This document shows positions 52,079-63,837 of a stretch of 64,000 bases of DNA, piece by piece. The DNA lies in the NCBI GenBank assembly GCA_902521465.1, contig CABYRL010000002.1, positions 122,777-186,776 of the forward strand, written 5' to 3'. Origin of the DNA: an uncultured Alphaproteobacteria bacterium. Its GTDB lineage: Bacteria > Pseudomonadota > Alphaproteobacteria > HIMB59. Within the stretch, counting starts at the first letter, position 1. The number at the start of each line of letters is the position of its first letter. The position numbers and the translations under genes were made by a program. The notes beneath the pieces are model-generated. The model saw nothing but the letters and a program-made list of their open reading frames with translations. It had not been told where the DNA came from and made no database searches.

Positions 52079-52732
52079 TCAATTTTCAAAAATTGAAATA
52101 TCTAATTTATTCAAACATTTTTTACAAAAACTGAAATCATCATCCATATGAAATAGTCCTGGAAATGCGATACATTCTATTTTAGCTTTCTTGGCTGATA
52201 ATGCACTCTCAACTGAGTCTTCTATTGCTATACACTCATTTTCTTTTACACTCAATTTTTTAAGGGCTTCAAAATATATATCTGGGTAAGGTTTTACTTT
52301 TTTTATTAGTTTACTGTTTCCAATAAAATTAAAATCTGTTTTTATTATTTTATCTTTAAGAGTTGTGAAAATAGCATCTATATTTTCAGTTGTAGTCGTT
52401 GATGCTAGACCAATTTTTATATTGTTTAATTTAGCAAATTTAATTACGTCTAAAACACCCTCTCTAGGATTAATAATATTAGAATTTAAATATCTGTTAA
52501 AATATTGAGTTTTTAGTTTTCTAATTTTTTTCGAGTTTACTGTGTTCTGATTGATATTAGCAAAATATTCAACTCTATTTCTCCCCCCTGACTTTTTAAG
52601 TAAATTTTTATAATTATTTTTATCCCAATACCAATCTAGTCCTATTTCCATAAATGCATGATTAAATGACTGTCTTTGAATATCAGACGTTTCTACTAAA
52701 GTTCCTATAGATCCAAAAATTATTGCCTTCAT
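52079..52732 (-). CDS. HAD-superfamily protein lacking the nucleophilic aspartate
   Basis: A 217-residue CbbY/beta-phosphoglucomutase-like HAD fold. It has a helical cap after residue 14, motif II LASTTT, motif III Lys in KKVKPYPDIYFEAL, and motif IV CIAIEDSVESALSAKKA. Motif I, normally DxDGTL, reads FGSIGTL at residues 6 to 12: the nucleophile Asp7 is Gly and the acid/base Asp9 is Ile. The codons are clear (GGA TCT ATA), so this is not a frame error. Standard phosphatase or mutase activity is therefore unlikely. It is the last gene of the minus-strand operon, 31 bases after the SDR. Confidence 0.82.
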   Translation of the reverse strand: MKAIIFGSIGTLVETSDIQRQSFNHAFMEIGLDWYWDKNNYKNLLKKSGGRNRVEYFANINQNTVNSKKIRKLKTQYFNRYLNSNIINPREGVLDVIKFAKLNNIKIGLASTTTTENIDAIFTTLKDKIIKTDFNFIGNSKLIKKVKPYPDIYFEALKKLSVKENECIAIEDSVESALSAKKAKIECIAFPGLFHMDDDFSFCKKCLNKLDISIFEN

Positions 52733-52763: not shown

Positions 52764-53531
52764 TTATTTAGCAGTCCAACCACCGTCTACCACTATCGAC
52801 GACCCTGTAATCATTGATGAACCATTTGATGCCAGATATACAACTGCAGTGGCAACGTCACTTTCAGTAGCTAATCTACCAAGAGGTATATTTTTTAAAG
52901 TTTCTTTTTTAAATTTTTTATTAATAAAAAACTTTTTTACCATTGGAGTTTCAACAAACGTTGGACAAACAGAATTGACACGAATATTTCTTGAAGCTAA
53001 ATCCAGAGCCATTCCTTTAGTTAACCCTTCAATTCCAAATTTTGTCATATTGTAAGTACTTCTATTCGGTGCTCCAACTTTGCCTAGCTGAGATGACATA
53101 TTAATGATACTTCCTCCATTTGTTTTTCTATTTTTAGACTTTAACATCTTTCTGGATGCTAATTGTGCAACATGAAAAGAAGCTTTCAAATTTAAATCAA
53201 CCATATAATCCATATCTTCTTTTTTAATTTTGTTAAAAAACTCAGGTATATTTGTTCCCGCATTATTTACTAAAATATCTAATCTATTAATTTTTGAAAA
53301 AACTTCAGTTATTTGATCAAAATCAAATAAATCACAAACAAAAAATTCACATTTTCTTTTTAATTTATTTATTTCTTTTTTAACTTTAATTAGATCTTTT
53401 TCAGTGCGACTTAAAATTATTAAATCAGCACCTGCTTCTGCTAAAGCAATAGCTGAAGCTCTTCCAATACCTTTTCCCGCACCTGTCACAAGTGCTATTT
53501 TTTTCTTGAGACTTAAACTTTTTAAATACAT
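52764..53531 (-). CDS. Short-chain dehydrogenase/reductase, SnoaL-cluster member
   Basis: Classical SDR of about 255 residues. It has TGAGKGIGRASAIALAEAG for cofactor binding, LSRT after the second strand, NNAGTN, catalytic Ser in NMSSQLGKVG, YNMTK as the Tyr-Lys pair, and NSVCPTFVETPMVKKFF and ITGSSIVVDGGW at the end. The start is the ATG at 53531 (TGATG with the HisD-like stop), not the tracked GTG. Being translated directly after the HpsN-like dehydrogenase, it probably acts in the same pathway on a hydroxyl or keto intermediate. Substrate unknown. Confidence 0.9.
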   Translation of the reverse strand: MYLKSLSLKKKIALVTGAGKGIGRASAIALAEAGADLIILSRTEKDLIKVKKEINKLKRKCEFFVCDLFDFDQITEVFSKINRLDILVNNAGTNIPEFFNKIKKEDMDYMVDLNLKASFHVAQLASRKMLKSKNRKTNGGSIINMSSQLGKVGAPNRSTYNMTKFGIEGLTKGMALDLASRNIRVNSVCPTFVETPMVKKFFINKKFKKETLKNIPLGRLATESDVATAVVYLASNGSSMITGSSIVVDGGWTAK

Positions 53532-54856
53532 CACTTAGGTTTAATTTTAGATACTGGTTTTCCATAGGCTACATTAATACCACCATATCTTCTTGCTCTA
53601 ACATTACATTGTTCGGCATGGCCTATAAAACCCTCTAGATATGATAATCTTGATCCATATTCTGCAATTTTTGTAGCTGCTTCATCAGTTGTAATTTTTT
53701 GATAAGTATGAGTTTTTATAAATTTACCAACCCATAAACCGCCTGTGTATCTTCCAGCTTTTTTTGTCGGTAAAGTATGGTTTGTTCCTATTACTTTATC
53801 TCCATTCGCAACATTTGTTCTTGCACCCAAAAAAAGTGCTCCATAAGATTTCATATTGTTTAAAAACCATTCATCTCTATCTGTCATAACTTGAACATGC
53901 TCTGATGCTATTTCATTAGCTTTCATTAACATCTCATCATAACTTTCACACAAAATTATTTCACCATAATCTTTCCAGCTAACACCAGCAGTATCTTTTG
54001 TTGGTAAAATTTTGAGTAGTCTATCTATTTCTTTTATTGTTTCTGTTGCTAAATCTCTTGAATTAGTAATCATTATTGCAGGTGAATTATAACCATGCTC
54101 TGCTTGTCCAAGAAGGTCAGTAGCACATATCTCTGCATCTACAGTATCATCGCAGATAATCATTGTTTCAGTAGGACCAGCAAATAAATCGATACCAACC
54201 TTACCAAATAATTGTCTTTTTGCTTCCGCAACGTATGCGTTTCCGGGACCAACAATCATATCTACTGGTTCTATGGTTTCAGTTCCAATAGCCATAGCTC
54301 CAACACCTTGCATTCCACCTAAAACGTATATTTCGTGTGCTCCTCCCATTTTCATAGCTGTAACTACAGCAGCATTTGGTTTTCCTTGATAGGGTGGTGT
54401 TGTTGCTATTATTCTAGGAACTCCAGCAACTGAAGCAGTGACTACAGACATATGAGCTGATGCCACCATTGGAAATTTTCCTGCAGGAACATAACAGCCA
54501 ACTGATTGAACAGGTATATTTTTATGTCCAAGAATTACACCTGGTTGAGTTTCTACTTCAATTTCACTTAAACTTTTTAATTGTGCCTCAGCAAACGATC
54601 GAACTTGTTTTTGTGCAAATCTAATATCCTCTTTGTCATTATCAGAAACTTCATCGACTAATTTACTTATTTCATCTTCAGATAATCTAAATGAACTAGG
54701 TGAGTATTTATCAAATTTCTCTGATAATTCTCTTACATAGCTATCTCCCTTTAATTCAATTTCCTTTAAAGTGTTCTCAACTACTGCTTTAACTTTATTG
54801 TTTTCTTCAGCTCTTTGTTTTTCATTTAAGCTTTTTTTGATAAATTCAACTGTCAT
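53531..54856 (-). CDS. HpsN-like dehydrogenase of the histidinol dehydrogenase family
   Basis: The 441-residue protein has the full zinc site and catalytic residues of the HisD family: Gln251 and His254 in [11 protein letters not shown], Glu319-His320 in IASEHVQVM, Asp353 in GDKVIGTNH, and His413 in GFIGHAEQC. The NAD region is [18 protein letters not shown]. The stretch [21 protein letters not shown] differs from biosynthetic HisD and resembles HpsN, which oxidises sulfopropanediol through an aldehyde to an acid. No his genes are nearby, and it sits between a SnoaL-type gene and an SDR. It most likely oxidises a primary alcohol to a carboxylate in a catabolic route. Confidence 0.88.
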
Positions 54857-54858
54857 TT

Positions 54859-55953
54859 TTATTTCTTATGAACTAATTCGAGCACATCTATTCCTAATTG
54901 AAATAAAATATGGACAATATCTATTGGTACCCAATTTTCCCTAATAAGACCCTCATTATGTAAATAAAAATCCATCACTCTCATAGTAACTAATTTATTA
55001 GTAGGTTCATACCCTAGCCAATCACTTGAACCGTGTGTAGCTTGAATACTATGCCAACCACCTGTCATAGAATAATTACCATCACCTATTTCAATGTAAT
55101 GACCAATTTTCCAATAATTTCTCTCTTTAAACGTCAATCTAAATGGTAGCTGATGATGCTCAATAAAACCTTTTAAACCTCTAGCAGTGCCTATACCACA
55201 TGGTCCGTACCACATCATTTTCGGATGCCAATAATCTTTTTGAGGATGGTTAATTAATTTCTGTCTGACACTATCTTTAGTAGCTCCAGTCTCAGTTTCT
55301 GGTTTTATATCTAAACTTCTTTGCATCGTAAGACCCTGATCAAGGGTTCTAGCTGATAAATCAGAGTCTAGGTTTTCAAAAGTTGTTCCGTCTCCAGTAA
55401 TGGGTCCTGGCCACATTTCTTCTATACCTAATGATGAATTAATTGGCCAAAAACCTGCTTGCCTTATGAATTCCATAATATCAATTAACACATGAGAATT
55501 GATTATTTTTTCATTTTCAATTTGATGAACTTCACAAATTCGTAAATGAATAGTTTTACCATTGGAGGGAATTCCTAACCATGGATTGACAAAAGTGCCA
55601 GTCAAATGACCAACAGTTGAGACATAAACCCTATCTTGAAAACTCCCTCCAATTATTAAATTATCTCTTCTCTCTAAATCTGGAAAAGAATTCAGTAAAG
55701 GTTTCCAAAGGGTATTAATTATTTCATCAATGCCTTTTATATGATTTACAGGGTGGAATGCATAGATTTCAGCATTTTCATGATATGCATTCTTTATATT
55801 TTGACTTAAATCACTATCTTTGGACTCAGAAATTTTTTTGAGAAGATTTCTAATTTTTTTTTTATTTAATATATTTTCTTCAGGGTCCAAATTTATAATT
55901 TTTGCTCCACTTTTAATTGGGATACCGGTATCAAAATTTTTAATTTCGCTCAT
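54859..55953 (-). CDS. Tandem SnoaL/NTF2-fold protein (class A, copy 1)
   Basis: About 364 residues with two SnoaL/NTF2-like domains. The first (about 40 to 165) has [44 protein letters not shown] and [24 protein letters not shown]. The second (about 235 to 360) has [23 protein letters not shown] and [34 protein letters not shown]. Known single-domain relatives catalyse aldol cyclisation or isomerisation; the reaction here is unknown. The start is the ATG at 55953: AGGTGAGG upstream serves as its ribosome-binding site, and the tracked GTG lies within that site. First gene of the operon with the HpsN-like, SDR and HAD-like genes. Paralogue of the gene at 59836. Confidence 0.82.
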
Positions 55954-56010
55954 GTTATATTGCCTCACCTATATAAAATAAATAAATATTACTTTGATTA
56001 ACTTTATAAT

Positions 56011-56053: not shown

Positions 56054-57028
56054 ATGACGCAGGATATTAACAGTCGTTTGGTAAAATTTAATGAGCTAGT
56101 CCCAAGTAAAATTCCATTTGTAGAAGGTAAGCTCAAAGGGCATCAAGATAGACTGAATTATTCTATAGTTGGTCCTGGAGTGAGTGAGGATACCAAGCAA
56201 AACGTCAAGATAGCTGAAGAGCATGGTTTCAATATAGGTGCAGTAAGTGCCGCTCCAATGAATGGATCGGGACTTCATAGCCACACTACTGCAGAAGTAT
56301 TTTTGATATTTTCAGGTTCTTGGCGCTTTTATTGGGGCGCAGATGGTAAAGAGGGCGAAGTAGTTTTAAACAAAGGAGATGTTGCTTCATTTCCCACTAA
56401 TATGTTTCGGGGATTTCAAAATGTTAGTGATGAAAAAGCATTAATATTTGTTGTCCTAGGAGAAAATGATCCCGGTGTGATAACATGGACACCAAAAGTA
56501 TTAGAAAAAGCAAAAGAGTCTGGAATGGTTTTATTAAATGATAATACCTTAATTGATCTTGATAAAAATAAAATTCCAGATGGAAAAGTTGCCCTTGAAC
56601 CTATTAAAGAAAAAGATCTGGAGTCTTTCGATCATTACACTTCTGAAGAAATTGAAAAATATGTAATCCGTTATGAAAATAAAGATAAATATTTAAAAGA
56701 TGATGAGCATTATAACTCTAATTCAATTTTAAATTACCTTGACTATTTTAATGTTCATAATAAAGATTTTGAGCCAAACATAGACCATAATACAGGCTTT
56801 GGTTTGACGATGTTAAAAGGTAATAATGCTCATATTCATCCGTACACATTAAAAGAGTCTGAAGTTTATTTATGTTTAGATGGTGAATGGGAAGTAACTT
56901 GCAATGATCAAAAAACCATAATTGGACCAAACGACTCTTTCTCGTCTCCAAGAGGTTCAACTAGAAGTTTAAAAAATATTAGTAATCAAGAAGGAAGTAT
57001 CTTTATTATACGACAAAAAAACCTCTAA
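56054..57028 (+). CDS. Double cupin protein of the SnoaL cluster
   Basis: 324 residues with two cupin barrels. The first (about 65 to 145) has GLHSHTTAEVFLIFSGSWRFYWG, giving His-x-His-x4-Glu metal ligands. Its second motif reads GDVASFPTNMFRGFQNV, with Arg where the fourth-ligand His is expected. The second cupin (about 240 to 320) has AHIHPYTLKESEVYLCLDGEWEV and GPNDSFSSPRGSTRSLKNI, again Arg for His. A three-ligand metal site in each domain is possible. Relatives include dioxygenases, isomerases and epimerases, and the reaction here is unknown. First gene of a four-gene plus-strand run; no clear Shine-Dalgarno sequence precedes it. Confidence 0.83.
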   Translation: MTQDINSRLVKFNELVPSKIPFVEGKLKGHQDRLNYSIVGPGVSEDTKQNVKIAEEHGFNIGAVSAAPMNGSGLHSHTTAEVFLIFSGSWRFYWGADGKEGEVVLNKGDVASFPTNMFRGFQNVSDEKALIFVVLGENDPGVITWTPKVLEKAKESGMVLLNDNTLIDLDKNKIPDGKVALEPIKEKDLESFDHYTSEEIEKYVIRYENKDKYLKDDEHYNSNSILNYLDYFNVHNKDFEPNIDHNTGFGLTMLKGNNAHIHPYTLKESEVYLCLDGEWEVTCNDQKTIIGPNDSFSSPRGSTRSLKNISNQEGSIFIIRQKNL

Positions 57029-57030
57029 TA

Positions 57031-58002
57031 ATGAAAGGTTTTGATAATAAATTTTTAGATCTACCAGATTATATATTTAAAATAACATATCAAATTTGGG
57101 AAAATAAAGATGTTGAGTCAATTAGAGACTATTATGCTGAGGGTATTCCAGTTAGGTCTCCAGACGGTGTAATATATGGCCCTGATGCTGTAGTGAAAGC
57201 TACTTATGCCACTTTGAATGAATTTCCAGATCGACAGTTATTAGGCGAAGATGTAATTTGGATTGGTAATGAAGAAAATGGATATTTATCATCACATAGA
57301 ATTTTATCTAAGGCGACGCATTTAAATGATGGTATTTATGGAAAAGCTACTGGTAAAACTCTCAAGTATCGAGTAATAGCTGATTGTGCTTGCAAGAATA
57401 ACCAGGTTTATGATGAATGGCTTGTAAGAGACCAGGGTGCTATTGTTCGGCAGTTAAACATTGATCCTAAAAAACATGCAGCAAAAGTAATTGAAAATCA
57501 AGGTGGTAAAGATAAATGCCCAGCTCCCTTTAATAACAACACCTCACATGAAGTAAAATATTTACAAATACCCATCTCAACAAATAATACAGGAATAGAT
57601 TATGCTAATATTTTAAAGGAAATATTTAATAATAATTTTAACATAATAGATAAAGTTTATGATCGATCAGTTAATCAAGAACAGCCTGGAGGCACGAAAG
57701 CATTAGGGGTAGATGAGGTAAAGAGTTTTTGGTCTTCACTAAGATCTATGTTCCCGGACTCAATTTTTAAAGTTGAACATGTATGCTATTTAGAAGAAAA
57801 ATATGAGTATAAAAAAGCATCCATTAGATGGTCACTAGAGGGAACTCATTCGGGACCTGGTTTATTTTCTAATCCTAGTAATGCAAATGTTCATATAATG
57901 GGAATATCTCAGGCTGAATTTGGTCCAAGAGGGATCAAAAATGAATGGGTTCTATTTGACGAAACAATAATTTGGAAACAAATTTTATTAAAAACTGGAT
58001 AA
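57031..58002 (+). CDS. Tandem SnoaL/NTF2-fold protein (class B, copy 1)
   Basis: 323 residues with two NTF2-like domains. The first (about 10 to 155) reads IFKITYQIWENKDVESIRDYYAEGIPVRSPDG, EFPDRQLLGEDVIWIGNEENGYLSSHRI and GKATGKTLKYRVIADCACKNNQVYDEWLVRD. The second (about 190 to 323) has FSNPSNANVHIMGISQAEF and NEWVLFDETIIWKQIL. It is paralogous to the gene at 60935 (shared ITYxIWE, FPxxxL, DEVIW-type and GK.TGK segments) but distinct from class A. It follows the cupin gene by 2 bases and precedes the RraA-like gene by 3, so the three are co-translated. Reaction unknown. Confidence 0.82.
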   Translation: MKGFDNKFLDLPDYIFKITYQIWENKDVESIRDYYAEGIPVRSPDGVIYGPDAVVKATYATLNEFPDRQLLGEDVIWIGNEENGYLSSHRILSKATHLNDGIYGKATGKTLKYRVIADCACKNNQVYDEWLVRDQGAIVRQLNIDPKKHAAKVIENQGGKDKCPAPFNNNTSHEVKYLQIPISTNNTGIDYANILKEIFNNNFNIIDKVYDRSVNQEQPGGTKALGVDEVKSFWSSLRSMFPDSIFKVEHVCYLEEKYEYKKASIRWSLEGTHSGPGLFSNPSNANVHIMGISQAEFGPRGIKNEWVLFDETIIWKQILLKTG

Positions 58003-58005
58003 CAA

Positions 58006-58707
58006 TTGAAACTACTAACAAAAAGAGAAAAGAAAATTATTGAATACATTAGAAATTATGACTCTCCAACTATCTCAAATTCACTAGAATTATTAGATCC
58101 AACTCTACGATCAAAAGGACACACACAAAAAACAATGCATTGTTTAAATCCGAGTTTAAAACCAATCATTGGTTTTGCCAAAACAGCGATTATTACATCC
58201 AGAAAAAAGAAAAATACAAATATAATTAAAAATAGAGATAAATATTACGATTATATGTTCGAAGGAAACTACCCAAAGATTTGTGTTATCGAGGATAAGG
58301 ATAAGACTAATACAATTGGTGCATGGTGGGGTGAACTTAATGCATCTATACATTTAAATTTTGGATTTGTTGGAGCTATAACAAACGGAGCAATGAGAGA
58401 TTTACAGGAGATAAATAGAAAGTTTCAAATATTAAGTGGTGAAATAAGAGTAGGGCATGGATACAATCAAATTCATAAAATTAATTGCAATGTTGATATT
58501 TTTAATATGAAAGTAAAACCTGACGACCTTATTCACGCAGACTTACACGGTGCTGTTATAATAAAAAGAGACTTTTTAATTGAATTACCATTGGCTATTA
58601 AAAAAATGATACAAAAAGAAAAAATAATTTTTGATTTCTTTAGAAAAAATAAAAAATTTTCGAAAAAACAATTTTTAGATAAGTATAAAAAATTTATCAA
58701 TTCATAA
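58006..58707 (+). CDS. RraA / HMG-CHA aldolase-family protein
   Basis: 233 residues of the RraA-like fold, which includes class II pyruvate aldolases (4-hydroxy-4-methyl-2-oxoglutarate aldolase), oxaloacetate decarboxylases and the RNase E regulator RraA. AWWGELNASIHLNFGFVGAITNGAMRDLQEI matches the family WGe..a..A...G..G.V.DGa.RD.. with Arg131-Asp132 kept and the earlier Asp replaced by Asn127. VKPDDLIHADLHGAVII matches V.PGDlv.aD..GVv. A basic C-terminal tail is added. The start is a TTG three bases after the previous stop. In this setting a C-C bond-cleaving aldolase is more likely than a ribonuclease regulator. Confidence 0.83.
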   Translation: MKLLTKREKKIIEYIRNYDSPTISNSLELLDPTLRSKGHTQKTMHCLNPSLKPIIGFAKTAIITSRKKKNTNIIKNRDKYYDYMFEGNYPKICVIEDKDKTNTIGAWWGELNASIHLNFGFVGAITNGAMRDLQEINRKFQILSGEIRVGHGYNQIHKINCNVDIFNMKVKPDDLIHADLHGAVIIKRDFLIELPLAIKKMIQKEKIIFDFFRKNKKFSKKQFLDKYKKFINS

Positions 58708-58712
58708 TTATT

Positions 58713-59843
58713 ATGGCATCTAAAATTTTGACAACACACGTTGGGAGCTTACCAAGATCCAAAGAACTATCAGAATATCTCTTTGCCAAGGATAAGGGTG
58801 AAGAATACAACAAAAAATTATTTGGAAATATTTTAAACTCAAATGTTGAAAAAATTGTAAAAAGACAACTTGAAGTTGGGTTAGATTTCATAAGTGACGG
58901 TGAGATGAGCAAGATTAGTTATGCTACTTATATTAAGGATAGAATTGATGGTTTTTCAGGAGAAAGTGAACGAAGAGCACCTGCCGATTTAGACGATTTT
59001 CCAGACTATAAGGAAAAGTTAGCTATTAGTGGTGGAACACCTACTTATTCAAGACCATGTTGCACCAATGAATTAAAAATAAAAGATAATTTTTCTTTGT
59101 TAAATGATATTGAAAATTTTAGCAACGCCTTAAAAAAGTATGGTCATGCAAAAGCATTTATGAATGCAGCATCACCGGGTGTCATTAATGTTTTTATGCC
59201 AAATAAATTTTATGCTAGCGATGATGAATATTTAAATAAACTCTCTAGTATTATGGCAAATGAGTATGAACAAATTACTAATGCAAATATTCATGTTCAA
59301 TTAGACTGTCCAGATTTAGCACTAGCTAGGCATATGAATTTTAAAGATCTATCTGAGGAGGATTTTTTAAAAAAAGCTGAAATGCAAATTGAGTGTTTAA
59401 ATCATGCTTTAATAAACGTTGATATTGAAAAAACTAGAATGCATATTTGTTGGGGTAATTATGAGGGGCCACATACTCATGATATAGCTCTAAAAAAAAT
59501 ATTACCTATAATTTTAAAATCAAAAATTAAATATTTTCTAATTGAGTCATCCAATCCTCGTCATGCACATGAGTGGAAAGTCTTTGAAGAAATTAAATTA
59601 CCAAAAGATAAAGTGTTAGTACCTGGCGTAATTGACTCTACATCTAATTTTGTAGAACACCCAGAAGTAGTAGCTGAAAGATTAATTAAGTATTCAACAG
59701 TAGTGCCTAAAGAACAATTAATGGCCGGAACTGATTGTGGCTTTAGTACTTTTGCAGGCTTTGGAAAAATTGATGAAAATATTTGTTATGAAAAACTTAT
59801 TGCATTAGTAGAGGGTACTAAACTCGCTTCAAAATTTATTTAG
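58713..59843 (+). CDS. MetE C-terminal-like zinc methyltransferase
   Basis: 376 residues resembling the catalytic half of cobalamin-independent methionine synthase, with no N-terminal half. TTHVGSLPR opens the barrel. DGEMSKISYATYI follows, and the zinc site is complete: His244-x-Cys246 in RMHICWGNYEGPH, Glu278 in IESSN and Cys342 in GTDCGFSTF. Such short MetE-like proteins transfer methyl groups between various donors and thiols. A stand-alone role in methionine synthesis is not proven. Its position in the SnoaL cluster suggests it takes or gives a methyl group in the pathway, perhaps from a methylated substrate. Its 3' end overlaps the convergent gene by 8 bases. Confidence 0.85.
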   Translation: MASKILTTHVGSLPRSKELSEYLFAKDKGEEYNKKLFGNILNSNVEKIVKRQLEVGLDFISDGEMSKISYATYIKDRIDGFSGESERRAPADLDDFPDYKEKLAISGGTPTYSRPCCTNELKIKDNFSLLNDIENFSNALKKYGHAKAFMNAASPGVINVFMPNKFYASDDEYLNKLSSIMANEYEQITNANIHVQLDCPDLALARHMNFKDLSEEDFLKKAEMQIECLNHALINVDIEKTRMHICWGNYEGPHTHDIALKKILPIILKSKIKYFLIESSNPRHAHEWKVFEEIKLPKDKVLVPGVIDSTSNFVEHPEVVAERLIKYSTVVPKEQLMAGTDCGFSTFAGFGKIDENICYEKLIALVEGTKLASKFI

Positions 59844-60840
59844 AATTTTCATTTTTATTTCTCTCAAGTAAATCAATACCCACACATTTTAAAAAATGAA
59901 GATGATCAATTAATATCCAATTTTCTGCTATTTTATCTCCATCTCTTCTATAAAGGTCAACAACTCTCATCTCCCCAATAAGATTTGTGTCTTGTTTGAA
60001 ACCCATGTAGTTACCTTTTGGTTTCATTTTTAAATTTGGCCAACCAAACCATCCACCATAATTTCCCTCTGAGTTTTCAAGTATATGCCCGGAGAAATCA
60101 ATAAAATCTAAATTATCCTCAAAGGGGCCCGTGTGACCTTTTAAATAACCATCATAGGTATATGATGCACCAATACCCCCTGGTCCCCACCATATCATGT
60201 CCTCATGCCAGTCTTTTTGTAAATCAGGAATTGTTGTCCTCATCCCCTCACCAATTAATCGATTTGCCATTCTCATTATAAGTTCAAGAGTTTTCTTTCC
60301 CTCTATTTCACTTTGTTTTTCAAAGCATAAACCCTGATGTGTTTTAGGTCCCGGATTAAAGCCAATCATCCCCGTTGACTCTGGGACTACTGATAAATTT
60401 AAATGTTGCATAAATTTTAAAATGTCTAAAAAAAAAGCACCTTCTTGTATTTTGTTATCCTCTACTTTATAGAACTCACAATACCATAACATTACAGTCT
60501 TAAAATTTGGTTTAATGTCAAAAAAAGGAAAATTAAAACTTCCAAGCAAATGCCCCATATTCACAACCCATTTTGAAGAATGATTGTCAACTAAATTTGT
60601 GCCAGCATAAAAGATATCCATTCTTCTTTGGATAGGCTTAAATGATTTTTTTATAGGAAACCAAAATTTTGTTGCAAATTCTTCAATACCTATAATCTCG
60701 TTAAAAGGATGTGTACATTTCATATTAAAATTTTTAGATGTGTACTTAGAAATTATTTCAATTAAGTTATCTTCACTAGCTTTATCAACTTCATTTATAA
60801 AGTTTAATACTAATAATTTTTCTTTCTGAAAATCAGACAT
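59836..60840 (-). CDS. Tandem SnoaL/NTF2-fold protein (class A, copy 2)
   Basis: 334 residues with the same two-domain layout as the protein at 54859. The first domain has SKNFNMKCTHPFNEIIGIEEFATKFWFPIKKSFKPIQRR. The second has DWHEDMIWWGPGGIGASYTYDGYLKGHTGPFEDNL, GGWFGWPNLKMKPKGNYMGF and LIGEMRVVDLYRRDGDKIAENWILIDHLHFLKCVGIDLLE. The last stretch aligns well with copy 1. It is a monocistronic minus-strand gene between two plus-strand runs, divergent from the class B copy 2 gene by 94 bases. The copies are clearly diverged, so this is not a recent duplication. Confidence 0.82.
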   Translation of the reverse strand: MSDFQKEKLLVLNFINEVDKASEDNLIEIISKYTSKNFNMKCTHPFNEIIGIEEFATKFWFPIKKSFKPIQRRMDIFYAGTNLVDNHSSKWVVNMGHLLGSFNFPFFDIKPNFKTVMLWYCEFYKVEDNKIQEGAFFLDILKFMQHLNLSVVPESTGMIGFNPGPKTHQGLCFEKQSEIEGKKTLELIMRMANRLIGEGMRTTIPDLQKDWHEDMIWWGPGGIGASYTYDGYLKGHTGPFEDNLDFIDFSGHILENSEGNYGGWFGWPNLKMKPKGNYMGFKQDTNLIGEMRVVDLYRRDGDKIAENWILIDHLHFLKCVGIDLLERNKNENSK

Positions 60841-60934: not shown

Positions 60935-62074
60935 ATGAAAAAAATTTTAATTAAAGATTTAAAACCAATCCCTTTAAAAGATCATCATATGCCAAAAAAT
61001 TTTGATATTTCTCTTAAATCTTATGGTGGAGGTGGTAATGCTAAATCTTTAAATCCAAATCCTAAAAATTTACCATTTCAGTCAATGCAGGGATTTGAAA
61101 AACAATATAAAAATATTATTGATTATATTGTCAGAATTACATACAGCATATGGGAAGAAAAAAATATAGGCTATATATACGATACTTATAGCCCAAAATG
61201 TCGTGTTTGGGATGAACTTGGTTTACAATTCGGATCTGAAAAAATTGTCTCTGATACAGTTCATACTAATAACGCCTTCCCGAATATTCGATTATACGCT
61301 GATGAGGTAATATGGGCAGGAAACGACAAAACAAGTTTTCATACTTCACATAGAACTATAATTACTGGCACTAACACTGGTTATAGCAATTTTGCGAAAC
61401 CAACAGGTAAATCAGTTAGGTTGTTCTGTATTGCAAACTGTGTAGCAAAAAATAATGAAATATATTACGAAAATGTTGTTTATGATACCGCAGGTTTAAT
61501 AAAACAATTAGGCTTAGACTTAAATGAAGTAGCAAAACAAATTGCTAATAAAGGAAATATTGGTCCATTTGCTCCTGATTTTAGAAATTCAAAACCCAAA
61601 AGAAATATTAAAAAGTTAAAGCCTATAAGCTTCGCGATACCTGATAAAATTAAAAACATTAGAGAATTTGTTCATGCGGTTTTTGATACTATTTGGAATA
61701 GAAGAAATTTTTCTGCTATTGATAGTGTTTATACAAAAAATATAAAATTTGAAGGATCAACTAGTCGAAAATTTGTTGGAATACCTAAGCTGAAACATTT
61801 TATAATTTCATTAATTGCATCATTTCCTGATCTTGCATTAAGTATTGAAGATCTATATTGGATGGGAAATAGTAAAGACGGTTATTTAGTATCAATTCGT
61901 TGGGGTGCTGTTGGAACTCACAAAGGAAATGGAATTTATGGAAAGCCATCTAATAAAGAGTGTTATCTTTGGGGTATTACACAATGGGAAATTAAAAATA
62001 ATAAAATTACAAAAGAATGGACTGGTTTCAATGAATTGGCAATCTTAATACAAATTTTAGGAGAAAAAAAATGA
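60935..62074 (+). CDS. Tandem SnoaL/NTF2-fold protein (class B, copy 2)
   Basis: 379 residues. A 60-residue N-terminal extension rich in Pro, Lys and Gly (KDLKPIPLKDHHMPKNFDISLKSYGGGG) precedes two NTF2-like domains. The first (about 65 to 205) has IVRITYSIWEEKNIGYIYDTYSPKCRVWDELG, ADEVIWAGNDKTSFHTSHRT and KPTGKSVRLFCIANCVAKNNEIYYENVVYDTAGLIKQLGLD. The second (about 235 to 375) has FDTIWNRRNFSAIDSVYTKNIKFEG, IEDLYWMGNSKDGYLVSIRW and CYLWGITQWEIKNNKITKEWTGFNE. Paralogue of the gene at 57031. It overlaps the next gene by four bases (ATGA). Confidence 0.82.
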   Translation: MKKILIKDLKPIPLKDHHMPKNFDISLKSYGGGGNAKSLNPNPKNLPFQSMQGFEKQYKNIIDYIVRITYSIWEEKNIGYIYDTYSPKCRVWDELGLQFGSEKIVSDTVHTNNAFPNIRLYADEVIWAGNDKTSFHTSHRTIITGTNTGYSNFAKPTGKSVRLFCIANCVAKNNEIYYENVVYDTAGLIKQLGLDLNEVAKQIANKGNIGPFAPDFRNSKPKRNIKKLKPISFAIPDKIKNIREFVHAVFDTIWNRRNFSAIDSVYTKNIKFEGSTSRKFVGIPKLKHFIISLIASFPDLALSIEDLYWMGNSKDGYLVSIRWGAVGTHKGNGIYGKPSNKECYLWGITQWEIKNNKITKEWTGFNELAILIQILGEKK

Positions 62075-62490
62075 ATTTAAATGAAAGTAAAATACTATTG
62101 CAAAATATGTACGATGCCTTGAATGCACAAGATTTAGAGGCACAGCATAAATATTGGAATGATGATATGATTTGGCATGGACCTCCAGGTTTTGGTGATA
62201 TACACGGTATTGAAAATTTTAAATATAAGGTTCTTAAACCTTTTTATGCAGCGTTTCCAGACTATCATGTAAAAAATGATATTGTTGTCGCAGAAGGTAA
62301 TTGGATAAGTGCGACAGGTTATTTAACCGGCACTCATAGCGGAACTTATCTAGGTGTAAAACCAACTGGAAAGACAATTAAAATGCAGTTTTCTGATTTT
62401 TGGACAATAGAAAATGATAAATTTATGGATAATTATGTGATGGTCGATAACCATGGTGTTTTCGAACAAATGGGCCTTAGTTTTAGATAA
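62071..62490 (+). CDS. Single-domain SnoaL/NTF2-fold protein
   Basis: 139 residues, one complete SnoaL-like domain: LLQNMYDALNAQDLEAQHKYWNDDMIWHGPPGFGDIHGIENFKYKVLKPFYAAFPDYHVKNDIVVAEGNWISATGYLTGTHSGTYLGVKPTGKTIKMQFSDFWTIENDKFMDNYVMVD. It resembles SnoaL/aclacinomycin-type cyclases and annotated ester cyclases in length and layout. Its WNDDMIWHGPPGFG stretch matches the second domains of the two class A tandem proteins, so it shows the single unit from which they are built. It is coupled to the class B copy 2 gene by an ATGA overlap. Reaction unknown. Confidence 0.86.
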   Translation: MNLNESKILLQNMYDALNAQDLEAQHKYWNDDMIWHGPPGFGDIHGIENFKYKVLKPFYAAFPDYHVKNDIVVAEGNWISATGYLTGTHSGTYLGVKPTGKTIKMQFSDFWTIENDKFMDNYVMVDNHGVFEQMGLSFR

Positions 62491-62601
62491 AAGAGAATAA
62501 CATAATAATTTCCGCGACCATTTCTCTTACATTTAAATTTTGTTTTATTTAGTATAGTTTTTTAAAAATAACTTTTTATTAACAAAAAGAAGAGGAAATA
62601 A

Positions 62602-63837
62602 ATGAAAAAACTAATAATAGCTCTATTGATCTCTTTTGCATCTACTAGTGTTTTTGCAGGTAGCCATTCACCTTGTGGTGTAACAAGCGGTTCAATAAAT
62701 ATTTTAGCTAACGAATTTACTACATACAGAATTTTTATGGATGAAGTAAAAAGTTGTGCTGGACCAGATGCGGATTTTAATGTCACGCACTCTGTTGACC
62801 ATAATAAATTACAAGTAGCTGCTTTATCAGCAAACCCTGCTGAATTTTCTGCAAAATTAGTTACTAATGGTTCAATTACACCTTTAATGAATGACGGTTT
62901 AATTCGTCCACTAGATGATTTAGTTGCAAAATATGGGTCAAACTTAAATGAAAATCAAAAGATTACAATTGATGGAAAGATTTATGCTGTAGCTTTTATG
63001 GCAAACGCACAACATCTTTGGTACAGAGAAAGTATTCTTAACGATTTAGGAATAGCAGTTCCTTCTACTTATGAAGAGGTAATTGCTGCTGCTGAAAAAA
63101 TTAAAGCAGCTGGAGTTATGGACAATCCATATGCAGGAGCTTTCAAGTCTGGATGGAATCTTGGTCAAGAATTTGTAAACATGTACCTTGGTCATGGTGG
63201 TGAATTTTTTAAATCAGGCTCTGCTCAGCCTAACGTGAACAACGAAAAAGGTGTTGCAGCTTTGAATGTTATTAAAAAATTAACTGAGTTAAGTAATCCT
63301 GATTTTTTAACACAAGATACAAATGCTGTTAAAGAAGAATGGGAATCCGGTAACGTTGCATTAATGCATATTTGGAACTCAGGTGCCGCATCTTTACTTG
63401 ATGACGAAGGTGATCAAGATATCAAAGCTGATACACGATTAGCACCTTCACCAACTGTGGGCGGTGGAAACAAGCCAGCAACTACTCTGTGGTGGGATGG
63501 AATTGCAATTGCTACAAATACATCTGATGAAAATGCAGAGGCCTCATTTAGAGCTTTGGTTGGAGCCGCTTCATCAACTGATTTAGCCAATAACAATCCA
63601 AATGCAACTGTTTGGTTGATTAAAGGTTACACACCTGGTGATACAGCAGGGCCTGTTGTTGATGCAGCAAGTAGAGGCACAACACCTTACCCAAGTTTTC
63701 CACATATGAGCTTAATGCACGGTGCTTTAAGTACAGAACTTGTGGAATTTCTTCAAGGTAATGAATCAGCCGAAAAAGCATTAGCTGATGTTGAAGCTGC
63801 TTACATAGCTAAGGCTACTGAGCAGGGTTTTTTATAA
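62602..63837 (+). CDS. Sugar-type ABC transporter substrate-binding protein
   Basis: Periplasmic binding protein of the extracellular solute-binding family 1 (carbohydrate-type). The signal peptide MKKLIIALLISFASTSVFA is followed by GSHSPCGVTSGSINILANEF. Later motifs are SANPAEFSAKLVTNGSITPLMNDGLIRPLDDLVAKYG, the typical IDGKIYAVAFMANAQHLWYRESILNDLGIAVPSTYEEVIAAAEKIKAAG, and LWWDGIAIATNTSDENAEASFRALVGAA. 411 residues. AGAAGAGGAA is a strong ribosome-binding site, and codon use is richer in G and C, suggesting high expression. It lies next to the SnoaL cluster and probably imports its substrate; the sugar-like nature of that substrate is inferred. Confidence 0.9.
   Translation: MKKLIIALLISFASTSVFAGSHSPCGVTSGSINILANEFTTYRIFMDEVKSCAGPDADFNVTHSVDHNKLQVAALSANPAEFSAKLVTNGSITPLMNDGLIRPLDDLVAKYGSNLNENQKITIDGKIYAVAFMANAQHLWYRESILNDLGIAVPSTYEEVIAAAEKIKAAGVMDNPYAGAFKSGWNLGQEFVNMYLGHGGEFFKSGSAQPNVNNEKGVAALNVIKKLTELSNPDFLTQDTNAVKEEWESGNVALMHIWNSGAASLLDDEGDQDIKADTRLAPSPTVGGGNKPATTLWWDGIAIATNTSDENAEASFRALVGAASSTDLANNNPNATVWLIKGYTPGDTAGPVVDAASRGTTPYPSFPHMSLMHGALSTELVEFLQGNESAEKALADVEAAYIAKATEQGFL

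Follow-up and report, generated by a model that had tools for sequence, protein, structure and literature searches.

The MetE-like zinc methyltransferase gene of a HIMB59-type alphaproteobacterium is a core member of a conserved gene cassette, and the adjoining RraA-like gene is an accessory, optional member of it. Both lie in the window, the whole stretch of 64 000 nucleotides that was analysed. Tentatively, and with confidence a little short of even, we read the former as a homocysteine methyltransferase and the latter as an optional aldolase or decarboxylase in a conserved import-and-breakdown island serving an uncharacterised pathway, whose reactions we infer from sequence. The strongest support among these is for the transfer of a methyl group to homocysteine; a methylated pathway substrate is a reasonable guess. 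In the proposed scheme, the ABC system would import a small polar, probably sugar-like compound, which the HpsN/HisD-like dehydrogenase, the SDR oxidoreductase, the HAD hydrolase, the bicupin and the SnoaL enzymes would remodel. The MetE-like enzyme would activate homocysteine as a zinc thiolate and methylate it to methionine, with either an intermediate of the pathway or, more indirectly, methyl-THF as the source of the methyl group. Where it is present, the RraA-like protein would catalyse a retro-aldol or decarboxylation reaction that depends on a metal. The island's methionine would add to that of a BHMT-type enzyme. Literature searches found no published description of the cassette, and the island, so far undescribed, is common to this bacterium and other marine bacteria.

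Layout and conservation of the island

The RraA-like gene (58006–58707, + strand, 233 amino acids; ORF call, PF03737 match and alignment) begins with a TTG codon 3 nt past the stop of the gene for SnoaL_B (57031–58002, + strand; Pfam and synteny), a protein of two SnoaL domains with a predicted structure of moderate quality (pLDDT 69). It is followed by the MetE-like gene (58713–59843, + strand, 376 amino acids, ATG start; ORF call, PF01717 match, residues and structural model). The unit is headed by a two-domain cupin, or bicupin (56054–57028, + strand; Pfam), with an HxH..E motif in both halves. The gaps between these four genes are 2, 3 and 5 nt, with RraA and MetE last, and with the order conserved they bear out the original prediction that the two genes share an operon with SnoaL and cupin genes. 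Divergent from the cupin gene, with 85 bp between, are the genes for SnoaL_A (54859–55968, − strand; two SnoaL domains, Pfam and synteny), an HpsN/HisD-superfamily dehydrogenase carrying the motif GKFPM (53531–54856, − strand; profile and structure matches, alignment), an SDR oxidoreductase (52764–53534, − strand) and a HAD-family hydrolase (52079–52732, − strand), the last two assigned by Pfam and synteny. On the other side, SnoaL_C (59836–60840, − strand) is convergent with the MetE-like gene, overlapping it by 8 nt, and is followed by the two-domain SnoaL_D (60935–62074, + strand) and the single-domain SnoaL_E (62071–62490, + strand), all three assigned by Pfam and synteny, which brings the SnoaL proteins in the island to five. 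A sugar-type (CUT1) ABC solute-binding protein (UgpB; 62602–63837, + strand; profile match) comes next, and two permease genes follow it just past the window edge (locus L194). The LacI-type regulator of the sister-family and roseobacter cassettes is absent from the window version at 62490–62602.

The host genome (1.34 Mb, approximately 92% complete), whose near relatives are single-cell genomes, probably belongs to the HIMB59/AEGEAN-169 order, which consists of two families (PMC10734472, PMC10308909), a make-up that agrees with what is seen here. Its own family is a single genus that includes one closed genome of 1.4 Mb, and the second is referred to here as the sister family. Eighty loci were fetched from the public genome set, and 79 of them hold the same cassette in whole or in part, the exception being a Burkholderiales locus (L139); the gene order is kept in dozens of genomes, far above chance expectation. 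The MetE-like gene is present in 28 of the 52 own-family genomes. Four near-complete members of the family (G001, G006, G009 and G029) lack both the MetE-like gene and SnoaL_B, and because the two are missing together the island is all-or-none. This behaviour, and the synteny kept in the own family, the sister family and the roseobacters, supports the preferred reading. Roseobacter plasmids carry the ABC importer, SnoaL genes, the HisD-like dehydrogenase, SDR, LacI, cupin, MetE-like, an alpha/beta hydrolase and RraA. Among 17 other alphaproteobacterial cassettes, MetE and cupin are found in all, HisD-like, SnoaL_B-type and LacI genes in 16 each and RraA in ten; at least two of the seven cassettes counted as lacking RraA run off the end of a contig. 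In the tree, the two cassette MetE groups each form one clade and lie close together, with weak joint support.

The original prediction took the RraA–MetE pair as a pointer to the pathway. The two genes do stand in one conserved catabolic island, and the zinc and homocysteine sites of the MetE-like protein are complete, but the pair is not a diagnostic unit. Co-occurrence is strict in the own family, where RraA accompanies MetE in 28 of 28 genomes; it does not extend to the sister family, where a linked RraA occurs in 0 of the 79 genomes with the MetE-like gene, nor to the 7/17 cassettes above. RraA as a core cassette member was rejected for want of a linked copy in the sister family, whose fully read cassettes pass from SnoaL_B directly to the MetE-like gene. 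A homologue lies elsewhere in the genome in two of the sister-family genomes with the MetE-like gene, and the surroundings of 26 MetE homologues from outside the cassette contained no RraA. That chance alone placed RraA beside MetE, and that the two serve separate processes, would agree with these absences and with the five sister-family RraA homologues located in other gene neighbourhoods. We nevertheless consider it quite improbable: the two genes are adjacent in 27 own-family genomes, the 28th (G016) being split by a contig break, and in roseobacters RraA lies in the same cassette at a different position, after the alpha/beta hydrolase gene.

At one locus (L137, and G007:C1:268431-269554), the cassette copy has disrupted MetE-like, HisD-like, SDR, SnoaL_D/E and UgpB frames and open ones for cupin, SnoaL_B and RraA; the genes may be decaying, or the assembly may be rich in errors. 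At three sister-family loci (L086, L128 and L131), the cassette abuts, upstream of the HisD-like gene, a pair encoding a PAPS_reduct-domain (CysD-like) protein and CysNC, or APS reductase genes; this may reflect a shared insertion site only or may hint at sulfur in the substrate.

The MetE-like protein and the methionine economy of its host

The MetE-like protein matches PF01717 (Meth_synt_2) with 54.4 bits (cut-off 21). Its residues His244, Cys246, Glu278 and Cys342 align with the zinc ligands His641, Cys643, Glu665 and Cys726 of Escherichia coli MetE, so that the complete His-Cys-Glu-Cys zinc site originally proposed is indeed there. Gly11, Ser12, Glu64 and Asp198 correspond to the homocysteine-site residues Gly432, Ser433, Glu484 and Asp599, and no residue of either site varies among the 24 cassette homologues aligned. 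The roles of the individual E. coli residues are those of established MetE structural work, in which Glu484 and Asp599 hold the amino group of homocysteine. The predicted structure (pLDDT 79, pTM 0.84) has MetE structures as its best PDB matches and, together with the invariant sites, argues for the homocysteine methyltransferase reading. The protein is a single catalytic barrel without the N-terminal half and folate domain, as judged by alignment with E. coli MetE and by the structure matches, and the folate-stacking Trp561 of the E. coli enzyme is replaced by Phe161 and Glu600 by Cys. A canonical two-barrel MetE with a folate site was rejected on the missing half and the Trp561 replacement. 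Curated methionine synthase models were all matched below their cut-offs, the best NCBIfam model being PRK04326 (99.7 bits versus 406).

These features leave room for a zinc thiol transferase that joins a thiol to a non-methyl electrophile from the pathway, as in epoxyalkane:coenzyme M transferase, or that acts in the reverse direction on a thioether, with no methyl group moved. It is established that the zinc proteins of this fold all activate a thiol; this, the replaced Trp561, the missing folate domain, the several genomic contexts within the MetE-like family and the lack of a known methylated substrate are consistent with such an enzyme. Its existence here is unlikely but to be taken seriously, and the invariance of Glu64 and Asp198 in all 24 cassette homologues speaks against it. 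So does the setting of sphingomonad homologues (45–47% identity), which lie in or near O-demethylation and one-carbon clusters beside a SnoaL-family gene, a setting that fits methyl handling. The association of MetE-like and SnoaL-family genes recurs outside the cassette, since it is seen both in sphingomonads and in Halobellus, where a plasmid of H. limi (L201) carries five consecutive SnoaL 'ester cyclase' genes, then the MetE-like gene, with a phosphonate-type ABC transporter alongside. Both cases favour the methyltransferase reading. Neighbours of the MetE-like gene on plasmids of Rhodococcus and Dietzia (L200 and L209) are genes for a 2-oxoglutarate oxygenase, a phytanoyl-CoA-dioxygenase-like protein and an HD-domain protein; known phosphonate oxygenase pairs are arranged in a similar way. 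Because the Rhodococcus, Dietzia and haloarchaeal homologues have neighbours that differ from those of the cassette, the wider MetE-like family may cover several chemistries, which counts against the preferred reading, as does the fact that the cassette does not need RraA.

The genome encodes one PF01717 protein, the MetE-like protein, together with SAH hydrolase and a BHMT-type homocysteine S-methyltransferase, and the MetE-like protein as the sole homocysteine methyltransferase of the genome was discarded once the BHMT-type gene was found. The separate full-length metE or metH considered in the original prediction did not turn up: neither MetH, a canonical MetE nor a B12-binding protein (PF02310) was detected in the approximately 92% complete genome. 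The interpretation itself is not refuted, since the BHMT-type enzyme is present alongside and relatives keep the gene in the same cassette rather than among unrelated genes. Nine GCV_T-family proteins score over the cut-off and, because these are folate proteins, folate-bound one-carbon units should be available; for MTHFR there is a weak match only. At G000:C1:464891-470961 (L216), genes for GCV_T-family proteins cluster with one for a divergent MTHFR-like protein that falls short of the Pfam cut-off.

The single PF01717 protein and the nine GCV_T-family proteins would suit a housekeeping methionine synthase that draws on methyl-THF or some other general donor and merely travels with the island. 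This is improbable, as the MetE-like gene is missing along with the island from the four near-complete genomes, keeps its place in the cassette across many families, and encodes a protein without a folate-binding domain in a genome that has a BHMT-type enzyme. Characterised core-MetE members use methylcobalamin as the donor (PMC7005905); because no B12-binding domain was found in the approximately 92% complete genome, this corrinoid donor looks unavailable here, but free methylcobalamin is conceivable. The BHMT-type enzyme, the SAH hydrolase and the missing B12-binding domain are in keeping with the preferred reading of a homocysteine methyltransferase in a breakdown island. A more specific proposal, possible though on balance unlikely, is that in the HIMB59-type and roseobacter pathway a core-MetE-type enzyme moves the methyl group straight from a catabolic intermediate to homocysteine, with neither cobalamin nor a folate domain. 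Published work reports core-MetE homologues of unknown function in aerobic marine bacteria, credits SAR11 with neither MetE, MetH nor the split synthase, and shows that Phaeobacter inhibens requires its split B12 enzyme for methionine (PMC12478193). The core-MetE-like gene of P. inhibens is dispensable for DMSP-triggered lag shortening (PMC12366255). These P. inhibens results would weigh against the preferred reading if that gene is a member of the cassette.

The RraA-like protein and the cassette dehydrogenase

The RraA-like protein, assigned to the RraA/HMG-aldolase fold, scores 60.4 bits against PF03737 (cut-off 24.5). The motif TNGAMRD occupies residues 126–132, with TNG at 126–128 and Arg131-Asp132 kept, and the metal/pyruvate motif RDLQE (Arg131 to Glu135) aligns without gaps with LigK. 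The original prediction had observed the kept RD motif and the Asn in TNGAMRD, both of which are found as described, and had treated the Asn as a change from Asp. That change carries no weight. All 13 sequences of the subfamily alignment have Asn at position 127, as do the unlinked sister-family homologues and nearly all roseobacter ones, with Asp in one roseobacter relative only (L167); the equivalent residue is Asp in LigK and Tyr in E. coli RraA. It is thus a hallmark of the subfamily, as the sequences indicate, and not a lesion particular to this genome, and it was dismissed as the mark of a dead aldolase. Curated models assign the protein neither to LigK-type HMG/CHA aldolases (19.5 versus a cut-off of 304.5 bits) nor to E. 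coli-type RraA regulators of RNase E (17.2 versus 136 bits), and the basal branches of the RraA tree have poor resolution. Because the RD..E motif matches LigK and Asn127 is the subfamily state, aldolase or decarboxylase chemistry is possible, in accord with the role given to RraA in the preferred reading.

The best solved-structure match of the cassette dehydrogenase is DHPS 3-dehydrogenase (HpsN; E = 5e-109), and catalytic Glu-His pair and zinc ligands are kept in the alignment. HpsN is distinguished by a GRYA/SH motif (GRYAH) with the sulfonate-binding His126 (PMC11382572). At this place the window protein has GKFPM, as do 80 of the 89 proteins in the alignment, and HisD has GSAPL; the motif ends in His in one protein only, a second copy outside the cassette at L162. 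Degradation of the sulfonate DHPS by the island, with the HisD-like gene as HpsN and the remainder accessory, would draw on the structural match and on the sulfate-activation or APS reductase genes that adjoin some sister-family cassettes, but with the His126 motif replaced and an importer of the sugar type it is hardly probable at all. HpsN as the identity of the enzyme was rejected on the missing motif, and biosynthetic HisD on GKFPM in place of GSAPL and on a separate Histidinol_dh protein elsewhere in the genome, which has the motif GLASY and a higher score than the cassette dehydrogenase. Neither DHPS nor histidinol is a likely substrate of the cassette enzyme. At five loci (L088, L128, L129, L130 and L133), the dehydrogenase is replaced in place by a relative of 46% identity with the motif GRYNN or GRNNY, which suggests swapped substrate specificity.

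Significance and comparison with known systems

The core-MetE-like gene can now be assigned to one particular catabolic island, widely conserved and equipped with an importer, and this opens its function to testing. Should methionine be formed from a pathway methyl group, the island would provide a second route beside BHMT in cells without MetH or canonical MetE, and would couple the breakdown of an abundant marine metabolite to methionine supply. Surveys that count marine hpsN genes by homology might record GKFPM-type dehydrogenases as DHPS degradation.

A close known counterpart is the core-MetE of Dehalococcoides (CbdbA481; PMC7005905), which has the same single barrel, HxC..E/D..C zinc motif and homocysteine-site residues and likewise no folate domain; the MetE-like protein differs in its catabolic cassette, in a genome with no detected B12-binding domain and in NCBIfam scores far under the cut-offs. 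With canonical MetE (E. coli b3829) it shares the fold and the zinc and homocysteine residues of the C-terminal half, but neither the N-terminal half nor Trp561 and Glu600. The sphingomonad LigM/MTHFR/PurU/FolD cluster holds or adjoins the 45–47% identical gene next to a SnoaL-family gene, although in an aromatic-catabolism setting with no sugar-type ABC importer and no HpsN-like gene listed. The RraA-like protein resembles LigK-type HMG/CHA aldolases and the RraA family (PF03737) in family profile and Arg-Asp-x-x-Glu motif, whereas its Asn in place of the LigK Asp and its low LigK score set it apart as a separate subfamily. The cassette dehydrogenase, finally, shares the fold family, zinc ligands and Glu-His pair of HpsN and histidinol dehydrogenase, but its specificity motif is that of neither.
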